Assembly: GCA_028871705.1 (NCBI GenBank) | Contig: JAGWMP010000002.1 | Location: 1 to 55,699, forward strand | DNA from: Gammaproteobacteria bacterium | GTDB lineage: Bacteria; Pseudomonadota; Gammaproteobacteria; Steroidobacterales; Steroidobacteraceae | Direction: 5' to 3' | DNA length: 55,699 nucleotides | In this document: one piece after another, positions 1-55,699 of the stretch | Numbering within the stretch: the first letter of the stretch is position 1 | Layout of the letters: the number at the start of each line of letters is the position of its first letter | Position numbers and translations under genes: made by a program | The notes under the pieces: generated by a model | Seen by the model: only the letters and a program-made list of their open reading frames with translations | Databases searched by the model: none | What the model was told of the DNA's origin: nothing

Positions 1-135
1 GGCATCATGGGTCCGCCGACCATCGCCTTCTACGGCGCCGATGGCCGCGAACGCAGTGACCTGCGCGTGGTGGGATACATGAAAGCCGACGCCTTCGCCG
101 CAAGGGCCCGCGAGGCGCTCCAAGCTCCGCCGTGA
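1..135 (+). CDS. dsbD: Thiol:disulfide interchange protein DsbD, C-terminal end (partial)
   Basis: Only the last 44 codons are inside the window; the gene begins to the left. The segment reads GPPTIAFYGADGRE, then RVVGYMKADAF, which matches the end of the C-terminal thioredoxin-like domain of DsbD, including the cis-Pro loop (GPPT). In the family, DsbD carries electrons from cytoplasmic thioredoxin across the inner membrane to periplasmic thioredoxin-like proteins. Its TGA stop overlaps the GTG start of the next gene (GTGA), and that gene encodes a TlpA-like thioredoxin, a plausible electron acceptor. The identification rests on a short segment plus this context. Confidence 0.75.
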   Translation, partial: GIMGPPTIAFYGADGRERSDLRVVGYMKADAFAARAREALQAPP

Positions 136-875
136 GCGGGCGCCGCCGCCCGCTCGGTGCCGCTGCCGCGGTGACCGGGATGCTGCTCGTGGCCGCGGGC
201 GCGGGCTTTCTCCTGCAGCGGTTGACCGCACCCCCGCCATCGACGCTGCGCCCGCTGCCACCGGCAGCAGCCCCCAGGCCTGCGGACCCGGCGCCGCCGA
301 CGGCTTCCGGGCCCACGCCGCGCCCGCCCGCCGCACCCGGCGCCGCTTCGGCCTCCGGGGGGCTCCCCGATTTCACCCTCCCCGATCTCAGCGGTGCGCC
401 TCGCCGGCTTTCGGACTGGCACGGACGGACGCTGGTGATCAACTTCTGGGCCACCTGGTGCGAGCCCTGTCGCCGCGAAATCCCACTCCTCGAGACTGTT
501 CGCCGTGAAAATTACTCTAAAAACCTCGAAATAATCGGTATCGCCGTCGATCATCTGGATTCCGTGCAAAAAATGGTCGAGGACCTCAAGATCGACTATC
601 CGGTGCTGGTCGGGGAGAAGGGAGGGCTCGCCGCGGTGAGCGCCTTCGGCATGGATACGGTGCTGCCCTTCACGGTGTTTGCCGACCCGCAGGGCCGCAT
701 CGTTACGGTCAAGGTCGGAGAGTTGCATCGGGACGAGGCGACGTTCATCCTCGCGCGGCTGGCCGAGGTCGCGGCCGGAAGGCTCACCGTCGCAGCCGCA
801 CGGGGCCGGATCGATGACGAGATCCGCCGCCTGGCCACCGCCCGTGCGGCATCTGCAGGTCCCACCCACAATTAG
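132..875 (+). CDS. TlpA/ResA-family membrane-anchored thiol-disulfide reductase
   Basis: The 247-residue protein has an N-terminal membrane anchor (about residues 9-30), a Pro/Ala-rich linker (about 33-77) and a thioredoxin domain with the redox motif WCEPC (Cys110 and Cys113). This layout fits TlpA, ResA and CcmG proteins, which reduce apocytochrome c or other exported cysteines on the outer face of the membrane. The GTG start overlaps the dsbD stop, so the two are probably co-translated and DsbD may keep this protein reduced. The C-terminal extension after about residue 215 is Ala/Arg-rich. About 55 bases near position 505 are markedly A-rich compared with the surroundings. The exact substrate cannot be told from sequence. 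Confidence 0.85.
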   Translation: MSGRRRPLGAAAAVTGMLLVAAGAGFLLQRLTAPPPSTLRPLPPAAAPRPADPAPPTASGPTPRPPAAPGAASASGGLPDFTLPDLSGAPRRLSDWHGRTLVINFWATWCEPCRREIPLLETVRRENYSKNLEIIGIAVDHLDSVQKMVEDLKIDYPVLVGEKGGLAAVSAFGMDTVLPFTVFADPQGRIVTVKVGELHRDEATFILARLAEVAAGRLTVAAARGRIDDEIRRLATARAASAGPTHN

Positions 876-6399: not shown

Positions 6400-6693
6400 A
6401 TGACGGCAAAGAAAAAGACTCGGACTCGTGAAGCCGCCGCCGCCAGAGTGAATGGACGCGATCTGCCGCTGCGCAATCACGCCGAGCGCGCCTTGAGTGA
6501 ATACTTCACCAGCCTGAACGGCCATCGGCCCGCGCACCTGTACGATCTGGTGCTGCGCGAGGTCGAGGAGCCCCTGTTTCGCGTGGTGCTCGACTACGCC
6601 CAGGGCAACCAGAGCCGCGCCGCCGGAATCCTCGGCATCAACCGTGGCACGCTGCGCAAGAAGCTCAAGCAGTTCGGACTCGCGGGCTCCTGA
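6400..6693 (+). CDS. fis: DNA-binding protein Fis
   Basis: Fis is a nucleoid-associated protein and transcriptional regulator that bends DNA. The 97-residue protein (E. coli 98) has the helix-turn-helix in its last 45 residues, with the conserved segment [20 protein letters not shown] followed by TLRKKLK. The basic, Lys/Arg-rich N-terminus is more variable, as is usual outside the Enterobacteria. It follows dusB by 27 bp and precedes purH by 47 bp. A G-rich stretch (CCGGGGG) upstream of the ATG could act as ribosome binding site. Confidence 0.95.
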
Positions 6694-6740
6694 GGCCCGC
6701 CGGCGCCGGGCGCCCCGGCCCGTCGGGGGCTGAAAGCACG

Positions 6741-50491: not shown

Positions 50492-51145
50492 GTGGCACAG
50501 CTCACGCTCGCCATCGGCAACAAGAACTATTCCTCGTGGTCGCTGCGCGCCTGGATCGCGCTCAGGCACCTCGGGGTCGAGTTCGACGAGGTGCTGATCG
50601 CGCTCGACCAGCCCGACACCCACGAGCGCATGGACGCGTTCGGACCGAGCGGCCGGGTGCCGGTGCTGCGCGCCGGGGACCTCGCCATCTGGGACTCGCT
50701 GGCGATCTGCGAGTACGCCGCCGAGCTCACCGGCCGCGGCTGGCCGCGCGAGCGCGCGGCGCGCGCCGTGGCGCGCTCGGTTGCCGCGGAAATGCACTCG
50801 GGATTCCAGACGCTGCGCACGCTGTGGCCCATGAACGCCCGGGCCCGCAACCGCCGCACCGCGACCCCGGCGGCCCTCGCCGCCGACGTCGAGCGGATCG
50901 ATGAGCTCTGGAACGACTGCCGGCGCCGCTTCGGCGGCGGGGGACCGTGGCTCTTCGGTGCCGAGTACGGCATCGCGGACGCGATGTACGCACCGGTCGT
51001 GCTGCGCTTCAACACCTACGGCGCGCGGGTATCCGACACCGCGCGCTGGTACATGGCGGCGGTGCTCGAGGACGGCGCACTGCAGGAGTGGATCCAGGGC
51101 GCGCGCGCCGAGCCCTGGACGATCGCCAGCGACGAAGTCGGCTGA
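50492..51145 (+). CDS. Glutathione S-transferase family protein (second copy)
   Basis: The 217-residue protein starts AQLTLAIGNKNYSSWSLRAW, a conserved opening of one bacterial GST group in which the Ser of YSSWS probably activates glutathione. It has GPSGRVPVLRAGDLAIWDSL for glutathione binding and the C-terminal helical domain (FGAEYGIADAMYAPVVLRF). The start is GTG 50492, with GAAGG about 10 bases upstream. It lies 13 bp before the S9 peptidase gene and may share its operon. Confidence 0.88.
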   Translation: MAQLTLAIGNKNYSSWSLRAWIALRHLGVEFDEVLIALDQPDTHERMDAFGPSGRVPVLRAGDLAIWDSLAICEYAAELTGRGWPRERAARAVARSVAAEMHSGFQTLRTLWPMNARARNRRTATPAALAADVERIDELWNDCRRRFGGGGPWLFGAEYGIADAMYAPVVLRFNTYGARVSDTARWYMAAVLEDGALQEWIQGARAEPWTIASDEVG

Positions 51146-51158
51146 AGGGATCCATCGC

Positions 51159-53246
51159 ATGCGTCCCCGCGTGTCCCCGCTGCCCCCGTTCGTGTGCCTG
51201 CTCGTGCTGGGGTGCGCGCCGCTCGCGCACGCCGCCCCGTTCACGCCCGAGGACCTCGTGGTCCTCAAACGCGTGAGCGATCCGGAGCTCTCCCCCGACG
51301 GCCGCTACCTCGTCTTCGTCGAGCGCGAGACCGATCTCGCGGCCGACAAGGGCCACACCAGCCTCTGGCTGCTCGACCCGCGTCCCGGCGCCACGCCGGC
51401 GCGCCTCACCGACGGCAAGGTCAACGACTCGAGCCCGCACTGGTCGACCGACTCGCGCACGCTCTACTTCCTTTCCGACCGCGGCGGCAGCTCGCAGCTG
51501 TGGCGGCTGTCGCTCACGGACGGCGGCATTCAGCGCATCAGCGACTACCCGCTCGAGGTCGGCTCATTCAAGGTATCGCCCCGGGGCGAGGTGCTCGCCC
51601 TCTCCCTGGCGGTCTTCCCGGACTGCCCCGACCTCGCCTGCACGCGGGCGCGCCTCGACGCGCAGGCAAAGGACCCGGCGAGCGGCCGCCTCTACGACCG
51701 CCTGTTCGTACGCCACTGGGATACCTGGAGCGACGGCACGCGCTCGCACCTTTTCACGGCACGGCTCGGGGCGGATGGCCATGTGGGCGTGCCCGTCGAC
51801 GTGTCGAAGGGGTTCGACGCGGACATTCCCGGCAAGCCCTTCGGCGGCGACGAGGACTACGCCTTCAGCCCGGACGGGGCGACCCTGGTGTTCTCGGCGC
51901 GCATTGCCGGGCGCACCGAGCCCTGGTCGACCAACTTCGATCTCTACCAGGCGCCCGCCGACGGCTCCACCGCCGCGGTCGACCTCACGGCCGGCAATCC
52001 CGCCTGGGATGCGCAGCCGGTGTTCCTGCCGAACGGCGACCTCGCCTGGCTCGCACAGGACCGGCCGGGTTTCGAGTCCGATCGCTTTCACGTGATGCTG
52101 CGCAGCGCGCGAACCGGCACCGCGCGCGCCCTCACCGCCTCCTGGGACCGCTCGGTCGCGCGCCTCGGCGCGATGCCCGATGGGCGCCACCTGCTCGCGA
52201 GCGTCGAGGAGCGCGGCCAGCGCGCGCTGTACTCGATCGACGTCGCGACGGGCAAGCCCGTGAAGCTCATCGGCGAGGGCGAGGTGGCCGGCTACAGTGC
52301 CGGGCGCGCGACGATCGTCGTGAGCCTCGCGAGCCTCGCCGGCCCCGCTGACCTGTACGCGCTGCCGGCGCGCGGCGGCGTCTTGAAGCGCCTCACCGAC
52401 GTCAACCACGAGCTGCTGGCGGCGCGCAGCCTCACCGGCTTCGAGCAGTTCAGCTTCAAGGGCTGGAACGACGAGACGGTGTACGGCTACGTGATGAAGC
52501 CCTACGGCTATGAGCCGGGCAAGCGTTTCCCGGTGGCCTTCATCGTGCACGGCGGCCCGCAGGGCAGCATGGGCAACGAGTGGCACTACCGCTGGAACAT
52601 GCCGGTATTCGCCGGCCACGGCTACGGCGTGGTGAGCATCGACTTTCACGGCTCCACCGGCTACGGCCAGGCATTCACCGATTCCATCAGCCGCGACTGG
52701 GGCGGCAAGCCCCTCGTCGACCTCGAGAAGGGCCTCGCCGCCGCTCTCGAGCGCTACCCGTGGCTCGACGGCACGCGGGCGTGTGCGCTCGGCGCCTCCT
52801 ACGGCGGCTTCATGATGAACTGGATCGAGGGCAACTGGCCCGACCGCTTCCGCTGCATCGTGACCCACGATGGGGTGTTCGATCAGCGCATGATGTATTA
52901 CTCAACCGAGGAGCTCTGGTTCCCCGAGTGGGAGATGGGCGGCACGTACTACAACGCGCCGGAGCTCTACGAGAAATTCAACCCGGCGGGCTTCGTGGCC
53001 CGCTGGCGCACGCCGATGCTCGTCATCCACGGCGAGCAGGACTTCCGCATCCCCTACTCCCAGGGACTCGGCGCATTCACCGCCCTGCAACGCCGCGGGA
53101 TCGAAAGCCGCTTACTGGTCTTCCCCAACGAGAATCACTGGGTGCGCAAGCCCGCCGACAGCCTGCAGTGGCACCACGAAGTCTTCAAGTGGCTCGATGC
53201 GCATCTGCAGGACCCACCTCACCAGCCGAGCACTCCGTCGAAATGA
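51159..53246 (+). CDS. Secreted S9 prolyl oligopeptidase family peptidase (intact triad)
   Basis: The 695-residue protein has a signal peptide (MRPRVSPLPPFVCLLVLGCA, then PLAHAA), a beta-propeller of TolB/DPP-like blades (ELSPDGRYLVFV, PHWSTDSRTLYFLSD, FSPDGATLVFSA) and a C-terminal alpha/beta hydrolase domain. The triad is complete: Ser in LGASYGGFMMNW, Asp in VIHGEQDFRIPY and His in FPNENHWVRKP. It resembles dipeptidyl-peptidase/acylaminoacyl-peptidase enzymes of subfamily S9C that act on short peptides in the periplasm. AAGGGA lies 8 bases before the ATG. The stop overlaps a minigene start (ATGA) that leads to the next S9 gene. Confidence 0.93.
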   Translation: MRPRVSPLPPFVCLLVLGCAPLAHAAPFTPEDLVVLKRVSDPELSPDGRYLVFVERETDLAADKGHTSLWLLDPRPGATPARLTDGKVNDSSPHWSTDSRTLYFLSDRGGSSQLWRLSLTDGGIQRISDYPLEVGSFKVSPRGEVLALSLAVFPDCPDLACTRARLDAQAKDPASGRLYDRLFVRHWDTWSDGTRSHLFTARLGADGHVGVPVDVSKGFDADIPGKPFGGDEDYAFSPDGATLVFSARIAGRTEPWSTNFDLYQAPADGSTAAVDLTAGNPAWDAQPVFLPNGDLAWLAQDRPGFESDRFHVMLRSARTGTARALTASWDRSVARLGAMPDGRHLLASVEERGQRALYSIDVATGKPVKLIGEGEVAGYSAGRATIVVSLASLAGPADLYALPARGGVLKRLTDVNHELLAARSLTGFEQFSFKGWNDETVYGYVMKPYGYEPGKRFPVAFIVHGGPQGSMGNEWHYRWNMPVFAGHGYGVVSIDFHGSTGYGQAFTDSISRDWGGKPLVDLEKGLAAALERYPWLDGTRACALGASYGGFMMNWIEGNWPDRFRCIVTHDGVFDQRMMYYSTEELWFPEWEMGGTYYNAPELYEKFNPAGFVARWRTPMLVIHGEQDFRIPYSQGLGAFTALQRRGIESRLLVFPNENHWVRKPADSLQWHHEVFKWLDAHLQDPPHQPSTPSK

Positions 53247-53278
53247 AAACGCACGGGCTGGATGCGCACCTGAAATGA
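53243..53278 (+). CDS. 11-codon minigene bridging two S9 genes
   Basis: The reading frame MKTHGLDAHLK begins with an ATG that overlaps the stop of the active S9 gene (ATGA, 53243-53246). It ends with a TGA that overlaps the ATG of the next S9 gene (ATGA, 53275-53278). It could pass ribosomes from one gene to the next by re-initiation. The peptide itself resembles nothing known. Coding is plausible but unproven. Confidence 0.35.
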   Translation: MKTHGLDAHLK

Positions 53279-55176
53279 GGACGCTGCTCGCACTTGTGGG
53301 CCTGGGGGCGCTCTCGGCCACGCTGGCCGCACCGCCTCCCGCGGCGGAGGTGTTCGCCGCGCTCCCGGAAGCGACTCAACCCGCGATCAGCCCGGATGGC
53401 CACTACCTGGCGTGGTCCGAGCGCAAGGGTGACTCGGTCGGCGTGGTGATCTTCGATCTCGGTACGCGCCAGAATCTGCGCGTCCTCGGCGTCGTCGCCG
53501 GCGACACGCTGGTCTCACTCGGCTGGCAAAGCAACGAGACGCTGCTGATGGAGCTGCAGATCGCGGCCAATCACCCCGGCCCGGGGCGGCAGGTGTTGGC
53601 GCAGAACGTCGCCAGCGGCGAGAGCCGCGAAGTGGTCTCCCGCTTCGAGTACCTGGTCGCAGCGCGCACTACCAAGCCCGACACGGTCATCGTCGCCACG
53701 CAGCCGCCCAACGTCACCACCATCGGAGAGGCCGGCGGTTACACGCACCTCCTGGAGGTCGACGTGCGCACGGGCACCCAGACCTCGCTGCGCGAGGGCG
53801 GTAAGCGCACGATCCGCTGGTTCGTCGACCGCGACGGACACCCCGTGGCGCGCGAGGACTGGGAGTGGCTGCAGAACCAGTACTGTGTCTATGCCATCCC
53901 GGGCAACACCAAGCGCGAGCTGCTGTGTCGCGACGACTCCGACCCGCCCACCATCAGCGGCATGCTGGGCGACGGCAGCGCGCTGGTGGTTCTGGAGGCC
54001 AACGGACACAGCCACGAGGCGGCCTGGGCGCTGCCGCTCGACGGCTCGCACCCGCGCGTACTGGCGGAGCTGCCGGACGCCGACATCACCAGTGTCTTCC
54101 TCGACTCCTATAGCGGCGCGGTGACTGGTGTGCTCGCGAGCGGCCTCGGCAGCTCCATTCGCTGGCTCGACCCTGCCGCCGAGCAACGCTACACCTCGAT
54201 CGCGCGCGCCTTCCCCAATCTGCAAGTGGAGCCCTACGGATGGACCGAGGATGGCAGCAAGACGCTGGCTCGCGTCAGCTCCCCGTCCGCTCCGCCCGTG
54301 TACTACCTGACCGACTTCAAGACCAACAAAGCGGACATCGCCGCCGAGACGTATCCAGGGCTGGCCGGCGCGGCGCTGGGTGAGGTGAAGGAGATCAGCT
54401 ACAAGTCCCGCGACGGGACCGACATCCCGGCCTACCTCGCGACGCCGCCGGGCGCCAAGCCGCCTCTTGCGCTCGTCGTGCTGCCGCACGGCGGTCCCAA
54501 CTCGCGCGACTACCTCGTGTTCAATGCCCTGGTGCAGTTCCTCGCCACCCGCGGCTACGCGGTACTGCGGCCTGAGTTTCGCGGCTCAAGCGGTTTCGGT
54601 GACGCCTACCGCGAGGCCGGCGATCAGCAATGGGGCGGCAGGATGCAGGATGACATCACCGACGGCGTCCGCGCGTTGGTCGCACAGCAGCTCGCCGACC
54701 CGCACCGGGTCTGCATCTTCGGTGACACGCCGTACGGCGGCTACGCGGCGCTGGCGGGTGCGGCGTTCACACCCGAGCTCTACGCGTGTGCGGTGAGCAT
54801 CAACGGCGTCTCGGACTTGCCGGCCTATGTCACCGCGTTGCTGCCGCGCACCGGCACGCCTCTCGCGCACACGGCGTCCTCATCCAGCGCGGCGCGGGTG
54901 GAGAAACGCATCGGCAAGCCGGGCGACCCGATCCTCAAGAGCCGCTCGCCGATCAACGCCGTCGCAAACATCCGCGCGCCCATCCTGATCATGTATACCG
55001 GCAACACCGGGCTGCTCCCTGTGCAAGGAGCTGATATGGCGCGGGCGCTCACCGCGGCGGGCAAGGACGTGACGCTCGACAAACTGCCCGGCGATGCCTG
55101 GGCCAATTCCCGGGTGCGCGCACAGATCTTCAGCGAGGTCGAGCGTTTCCTCGGCCAGCACCTGCAGGCGAACTGA
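53275..55176 (+). CDS. S9 peptidase homologue lacking the catalytic triad (pseudopeptidase)
   Basis: The 633-residue protein has a signal peptide (MRTLLALVGLGALSATLAAP), a beta-propeller (ISPDGHYLAWSERKGDSVGV) and an S9-type alpha/beta hydrolase domain (VVLPHGGPNSRDYLVFNALV; LRPEFRGSSGFGDAYREAGD, then QQWGG). The nucleophile elbow reads FGDTPYGGYAAL, so Ser is replaced by Thr-Pro. The Asp loop is MYTGNTGLLPV where family members have HGxxDxxVP. The usual His near GxDHW is absent (LPGDAWANS). The chain is full length and not frameshifted, so a binding or scaffolding role is more likely than decay. It lies directly after the intact S9 gene. Confidence 0.88.
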   Translation: MRTLLALVGLGALSATLAAPPPAAEVFAALPEATQPAISPDGHYLAWSERKGDSVGVVIFDLGTRQNLRVLGVVAGDTLVSLGWQSNETLLMELQIAANHPGPGRQVLAQNVASGESREVVSRFEYLVAARTTKPDTVIVATQPPNVTTIGEAGGYTHLLEVDVRTGTQTSLREGGKRTIRWFVDRDGHPVAREDWEWLQNQYCVYAIPGNTKRELLCRDDSDPPTISGMLGDGSALVVLEANGHSHEAAWALPLDGSHPRVLAELPDADITSVFLDSYSGAVTGVLASGLGSSIRWLDPAAEQRYTSIARAFPNLQVEPYGWTEDGSKTLARVSSPSAPPVYYLTDFKTNKADIAAETYPGLAGAALGEVKEISYKSRDGTDIPAYLATPPGAKPPLALVVLPHGGPNSRDYLVFNALVQFLATRGYAVLRPEFRGSSGFGDAYREAGDQQWGGRMQDDITDGVRALVAQQLADPHRVCIFGDTPYGGYAALAGAAFTPELYACAVSINGVSDLPAYVTALLPRTGTPLAHTASSSSAARVEKRIGKPGDPILKSRSPINAVANIRAPILIMYTGNTGLLPVQGADMARALTAAGKDVTLDKLPGDAWANSRVRAQIFSEVERFLGQHLQAN

Positions 55177-55699
55177 TCAGCGCCCCTTGCGCACGAACTG
55201 GTAATCCCCGACGGCGAGTGCGCCGGCGCTGAGCTCCATCTGCGCAGCGGCCGGGACGGCCGCGCTGTCGGGACACACCTTCGGGTCGTGCGTGGCGGCG
55301 AAGCCGTTGCCCTTCTTCTTCCAGATGAGCCGGCAGCCTTCCGGCTGCACGTCCTCCATCTGCATGCTGGTGAAGAGGTCCTTGTTGAGGTAGCCGTCGC
55401 GCCAGCGCGTCGGCTCGTTGAGCTCGTAGAGCGTCTGCACCAGGCCGCGCTTCTCGTCGAGCTCGAAGCTCCACATCTTCTGGCCGAGCACACGGCGCGC
55501 ATCGTCGAGCGCCGACTCCTGCGCGTAGTACACGTAGTGACCGAGGCGCGGCGTGTACACGTGCGTGACGACGAGCTGGACCGATTCGTGCGCCGGGTGG
55601 ACGTTGTTGCGCGCATCGAGCTGCGCCTGGGCGCTGTTGTCGTAGCGCCCCGGCAGCATGGTGAGCATCAGCATCAGGTCGGGCTGGGTCAGCCTGTCC
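55177..55699 (-). CDS. CpcT/CpeT family protein (partial, 5' end outside the window)
   Basis: The visible 173 codons begin mid-gene at the window edge (DRLTQPDLMLMLTMLPGRYD, then NSAQAQLD). They have the CpeT/CpcT pattern: a leucine-rich helix, GRYDN.AQ, then YTPRLGHYVYYAQESALDDA, LVQTLYELNE and a Cys-containing segment (PEGCRLIWKKKGNGFAATHD, then PKVCPD). In cyanobacteria the family attaches bilins to phycobiliproteins, but homologues occur in many non-photosynthetic bacteria with unknown function. The stop lies right against the end of the convergent S9 homologue. The N-terminus, including any signal peptide, is not visible. Confidence 0.8.
   Translation of the reverse strand, partial: DRLTQPDLMLMLTMLPGRYDNSAQAQLDARNNVHPAHESVQLVVTHVYTPRLGHYVYYAQESALDDARRVLGQKMWSFELDEKRGLVQTLYELNEPTRWRDGYLNKDLFTSMQMEDVQPEGCRLIWKKKGNGFAATHDPKVCPDSAAVPAAAQMELSAGALAVGDYQFVRKGR

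Follow-up and report, generated by a model that had tools for sequence, protein, structure and literature searches.

The S9-fold gene and its locus

The right-hand end of the window, i.e. the whole stretch of 55,699 nucleotides that was analysed, carries two S9-type genes in tandem, followed by a convergent gene that we take to be CpcT/CpeT-like (Table 1). The second S9 gene encodes a protein recognised by the Pfam model Peptidase_S9 (PF00326) at 87.6 bits (cutoff 22.6; 1.1e-24), which places it in the S9 fold family. The AlphaFold2 prediction consists of a single complete propeller joined to an alpha/beta-hydrolase (pLDDT 92.2, pTM 0.92), and the top solved matches of this predicted structure in Foldseek are the S9 enzymes 8wt1, 5l8s and 3o4j; by both measures the protein has the S9 architecture. 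Its closest curated NCBIfam models are those of Dpp5 (NF053518) and of the Atxe2-type lasso-peptide isopeptidase (NF033523), for each of which it scores 37.5 bits, far below the respective cutoffs of 900 and 400. Seven further S9-like loci are found elsewhere in the genome.

Residue columns were assigned by aligning the window protein to 85 homologues and to its own clade. The nucleophile elbow, G-x-S-Y-G-G in relatives, reads I-F-G-D-T-P-Y-G-G in the window protein, with the Ser gone and one residue extra, and the His region reads GDAW as compared with GEDHW in relatives. An active S9 peptidase would be recognised by a Ser in GxSxGG, a catalytic Asp and a catalytic His, none of which is present; the retained fold without the Ser is that of an S9 pseudopeptidase. 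The FRGS motif is kept, as is the HGGP oxyanion motif, which is altered in the five other Ser-less members of the clade described below. A sequence-only reading of the same DNA had reported that Thr-Pro replaces the Ser, that the Asp loop has become YTGNTG and that the His is missing, in an intact frame with complete propeller and hydrolase core, just downstream of an active-type S9 enzyme. The alignments, the 633-aa ORF with its confidently predicted fold and the triad motifs of the upstream gene bear out all of these points.

Table 1. Features at the right-hand end of the window and within the S9-fold pseudopeptidase (window protein).
Feature	Position	Strand	Details
Upstream S9 peptidase, Dpp5-like	51057..53246	+	intact triad by sequence (GASYGG / GEQD / NENH)
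Gap between upstream S9 stop and pseudopeptidase ATG	53247..53274	+	28 bases
S9-fold pseudopeptidase gene	53275..55176	+	633 aa; ATG 53275, stop 55174-55176
Probable N-terminal signal peptide	start of window protein		MRTLLALVGLGALSATLA; judged by eye
Beta-propeller	residues about 30-365		
Alpha/beta-hydrolase	residues about 366-633		
HGGP oxyanion motif, residues 405-408	54487..54498	+	intact; alignments
Thr485-Pro486 (ACG CCG)	54727..54732	+	replaces nucleophile Ser; sequence and alignments
Thr578 (ACC)	55006..55008	+	catalytic Asp column; alignments; loop MYTGNTG
Ala608 (GCC)	55096..55098	+	catalytic His column; alignments
Presumably CpcT/CpeT-like gene	55177..55699	-	exits window; ancestral right-hand neighbour

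The gene order around the locus is largely kept throughout the genus (UvrD, nudix, two small genes, MFS, HAD, GST, S9, CpcT-like), and the upstream S9 gene is found with 62-82% identity in many same-genus genomes. The pseudopeptidase gene is absent next to it in all 14 same-genus loci read, in 12 of which the CpcT-like gene lies downstream of the S9 gene, and among the genomes read this ORF-sized insertion is seen only in the window. Compared with an insert-free genome whose upstream S9 protein is 82% identical (G024), homology ends at CACCTGAAA (~53273) and restarts at TCAG (~55178); since it is found on both sides of the ORF, the insert essentially corresponds to the ORF itself. Its GC content (0.69) and GC3 (0.88) are near those of the surroundings. 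The 28-base gap has its homologue in the sequence just 3' of the S9 gene in an insert-free genome, and the insert therefore probably relies on read-through transcription; given this short gap, co-transcription of the two S9 genes is likely.

Towards its 3' end the upstream S9 gene has its LDAHLK tail repeated in tandem over a short stretch (window 53190-53275; also in L189 of G075, ~6500-6700), and the insertion in the window starts in or right after the second repeat copy. In G061 (L190), a methyltransferase-like sequence, identified by eye, lies at the equivalent spot between the S9 homologue (ending at ~6456) and the CpcT-like gene (~7249), so that this spot may accept cargo repeatedly.

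Relatives and the distribution of the losses

Homologues were collected by whole-genome searches of the genus, family, order and class and by one collection scan, in which the window protein alone retrieved no match and an alignment query retrieved L138. The resulting orthologue clade has eight members, seven of them from the window's own family, the Steroidobacteraceae, the eighth being L138, a soil MAG record. Two members, L010 (G001) and L138, have a full triad at ~50% identity to the window protein; the other six are Ser-less, five of them also without the His. No further clade members were returned by the class-wide search, and L215, an additional order-wide match, belongs to the active relatives and lies outside the clade, as placed by its motifs and not by the tree. 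Within the genus the pseudopeptidase gene is sparse, occurring in 4 of 58 genomes.

The replacements differ from one lineage to the next: in the order Ser, Asp, His, the triad columns hold T/P, T and A in the window protein, A, E and Q in G061, G, D and D in G118, N, D and D in G130, A, D and H in G123, and Y, a gap and Y in G017, so that the Ser is replaced by TP, A, Y, G, N and A across the six. An adjacent clade of nine (L011-L015, L039, L040, L057 and L097), hereafter the Gly clade, carries a Ser-to-Gly change in 9/9 members. The remaining complete alignment rows are canonical with the sole exception of L025 (1480-3414 in G050), a separate and probably inactive Ser-less S9 homologue from another family, whose triad columns hold Gly, Asn and Leu. 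One genome (G066) encodes two distinct Ser-to-Gly homologues (L039, L057). Some Gly-clade genes (L056, L059, L063) are flanked by thiolase-like and patatin-like genes, families that we named by eye, the patatin-like one having a cyclic-nucleotide-binding domain; this context is conserved and unlike that of the window clade.

In a careful tree computed without the catalytic columns, L010 and L138 are nested among the Ser-less members, with ultrafast bootstrap values of 94 at both forks holding them. Constraining the window clade's six Ser-less members to be monophyletic cost 101.7 log-likelihood units (AU test, p-AU 6e-9), and the same constraint on all 15 Ser-less rows cost 156.6 units (p-AU 1.7e-7); these tests were chosen post hoc with the tree already known, which makes the p-values optimistic, while the likelihood differences are large. 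The topology thus points to about five independent losses of the Ser in the window clade, or to fewer combined with a regain. With a single Ser-less clade rejected, and if no regain took place, the Ser must have been lost separately five times or more in the window clade and once in the Gly clade. The window protein and that of G061 may share a single loss (support 90/90).

The sequence-only reading had suggested looking for the same changes in close homologues, and had named homologues with a full triad as a sign of recent decay. The changes are not common to the clade, as the triad is complete in L010 and L138 and the remaining Ser-less members are differently replaced. Taken literally, these two relatives are homologues of the kind named, but the pattern of conservation described below is unlike that of a simple recent decay.

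Constraint outside the catalytic centre

Among residues invariant in the active members, 23 lie inside the catalytic motifs and 67 outside. The window protein retains 63/67 (94%) of those outside but 15/23 of those inside (Fisher p=0.0015), and comparable counts are found for G061 (63/67 and 12/23), G017 (67/67 and 17/23) and G130 (63/67 and 15/23); for G118 and G123 the contrast points the same way but is not significant. Active members, when left out singly, retain 92-99% outside and 92-100% inside the motifs. In simulations of neutral drift to 62% identity a mean of 7.9 stops accumulated, and 0 of 500 runs remained stop-free.

A codon model with free omega, fitted to five Ser-less members, was better than one with omega=1 by 402 log units, a result that concerns these members jointly, not the window branch in particular, and is obtained with synonymous sites near saturation. 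Two branch-specific fits were discarded, the first being unstable with branch lengths at their bounds, the second giving likelihood ratios below zero and near-zero omegas through synonymous saturation. The Gly clade lost its Ser ancestrally; those of its pairs whose synonymous sites are not saturated gave NG86 dN/dS values of 0.13-0.43, and purifying selection after the loss is well supported there. Ser-less and window-clade pairs have higher dN/dS (0.13-0.52) than active pairs (0.025-0.21), indicating weaker constraint.

For the window gene itself purifying selection after the Ser loss is likely, not proven: its own branch is long (0.66 changes/site), and part of the constraint may predate the loss. 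The non-catalytic role under selection that had been proposed from the sequence thus agrees with the intact frame, the fold and the constraint outside the catalytic centre, while for the window branch we infer the post-loss part of that selection.

Possible functions and known systems

Our preferred interpretation, to which we assign a probability of roughly 0.55, is that the gene encodes a periplasmic S9 pseudopeptidase, likely a binder of peptides or proteins, from a lineage in which catalysis has repeatedly been dispensable. Its origin would lie within the window's bacterial family, in a subgroup of S9 peptidases of the periplasm whose ancestor may already have had a second, non-catalytic function, possibly the binding of peptides or proteins in the cavity between propeller and hydrolase or at the surface. 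Catalysis would have disappeared several times over, with constraint persisting on the propeller, the hydrolase scaffold and the interface between the domains. The window copy, presumably made by read-through from the upstream gene, would now only bind, as a periplasmic peptide or protein binder or a scaffold. Neither a conserved neighbour nor a conserved replacement residue in the window clade gives a clue to its ligand.

A possible, if rather unlikely, account is that a dispensable gene is slowly decaying, S9 paralogues having made its catalysis redundant and the triad having been lost so recently that the remainder has not yet eroded. The sparse distribution without conserved context, the further seven S9-like loci of this genome, the raised dN/dS and the full-triad relatives at 50% identity would all fit. 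However, the whole frame and 94% of the other invariant residues are retained, the same pattern recurs in several separate lineages, and the Gly clade shows purifying selection after its loss. Moreover, the change of 8 of the 23 motif residues, together with the inserted residue and the altered loops, argues that considerable time has passed since the loss.

It is tempting to speculate, and compatible with the pseudopeptidase interpretation, that the clade ancestor lost its Ser and that the lineage of L010 and L138 regained it, a scenario that we consider doubtful. The catalytic Ser codon is AGY in 18/18 near outgroup active members (L079-L096), and TCT in L010 and TCA in L138. A codon can pass from AGY to TCN only through a residue other than Ser or by two changes at once, and the rate among the other active S9 rows (4 class switches per 35.5 substitutions/site) would predict only ~0.06 switches on the ~0.57-long path, which speaks for an intermediate without Ser. 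Against this, tandem double changes happen, and active S9 subfamilies can differ in their codon class; TCN is often used by other subfamilies, for which reason we rejected it as unique proof of a regain. Furthermore, L010 and L138 retain 23/23 motif residues including the His and HGGP, whereas Ser-less lineages lose such residues fast.

The sequence-only reading had offered a role as partner or regulator of the upstream S9 enzyme, i.e. a heteromer of pseudoenzyme and enzyme, which now appears improbable. The same strand and a gap too short for a promoter of its own would suit such a pair, and pseudoenzymes often regulate active paralogues (PMC11266112). But the gene is missing from all 14 upstream-S9 loci read, 12 of them with the CpcT-like gene in its place downstream, the insertion being seen there only in the window; its orthologues occupy other contexts, no neighbour being common to them among the loci compared, which argues against an old partnership. 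In addition, identity between the two proteins is only ~29% and covers part of the hydrolase domain. A different catalytic activity through Thr485, which can occupy the nucleophile position when left-aligned, or through other pocket residues next to the intact HGGP is very improbable, as the triad columns hold no general base or acid, the elbow is altered by an inserted residue and a Pro, and replacements that vary between lineages leave no conserved new active site.

The periplasmic pseudopeptidase that we favour has the architecture of its bacterial family's active S9 peptidases of the periplasm (L010, L138, L079, L081 and others), with which it shares 40-50% identity and the invariant residues outside the catalytic motifs; these enzymes have the Ser, Asp and His and the window protein none of them. 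The Gly-clade homologues are likewise Ser-less S9 proteins with intact frames from the same bacterial family. They differ in the uniform Ser-to-Gly change, in keeping the Asp with a variable His, and in an HGGP altered to PGGP or PGGA, and they do not form one clade with the window protein.

Inactive S9 proteins are an already known kind, to which the window protein would add a bacterial one. Mammalian DPP6, with Asp at the Ser position, and DPP10, with Gly, are inactive S9B proteins that serve as Kv4 subunits, and fly DPP10 combines Kv4 binding with peptide cleavage (PMC4350108, PMC4873792); DPP10 retains His759 and Asp727 (PMC4350108). Like the window protein, DPP6 and DPP10 combine an S9 propeller and hydrolase with a replaced Ser, and their role is non-catalytic. 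They are membrane-anchored channel subunits, whereas the window protein comes from a bacterium, is probably secreted and is devoid of all three residues. In our reading it would resemble them in kind, as a fold without the chemistry, and would not belong to their subfamily. In the library of papers searched, bacterial S9 pseudopeptidases yielded nothing relevant, which is weak evidence of absence.

Pseudopeptidases are mostly found singly, and whether a new role came before the loss of catalysis or resulted from it is then hard to tell. Here, a single orthologue clade contains two apparently active and six Ser-less members, so that catalytic and non-catalytic functions of S9 proteins become separable by natural variants. 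If the regain were true, the clade would document how a serine peptidase died and was revived while a non-catalytic function was conserved, and if the evidence from the Ser codons holds, the reversibility of enzyme death would become testable.
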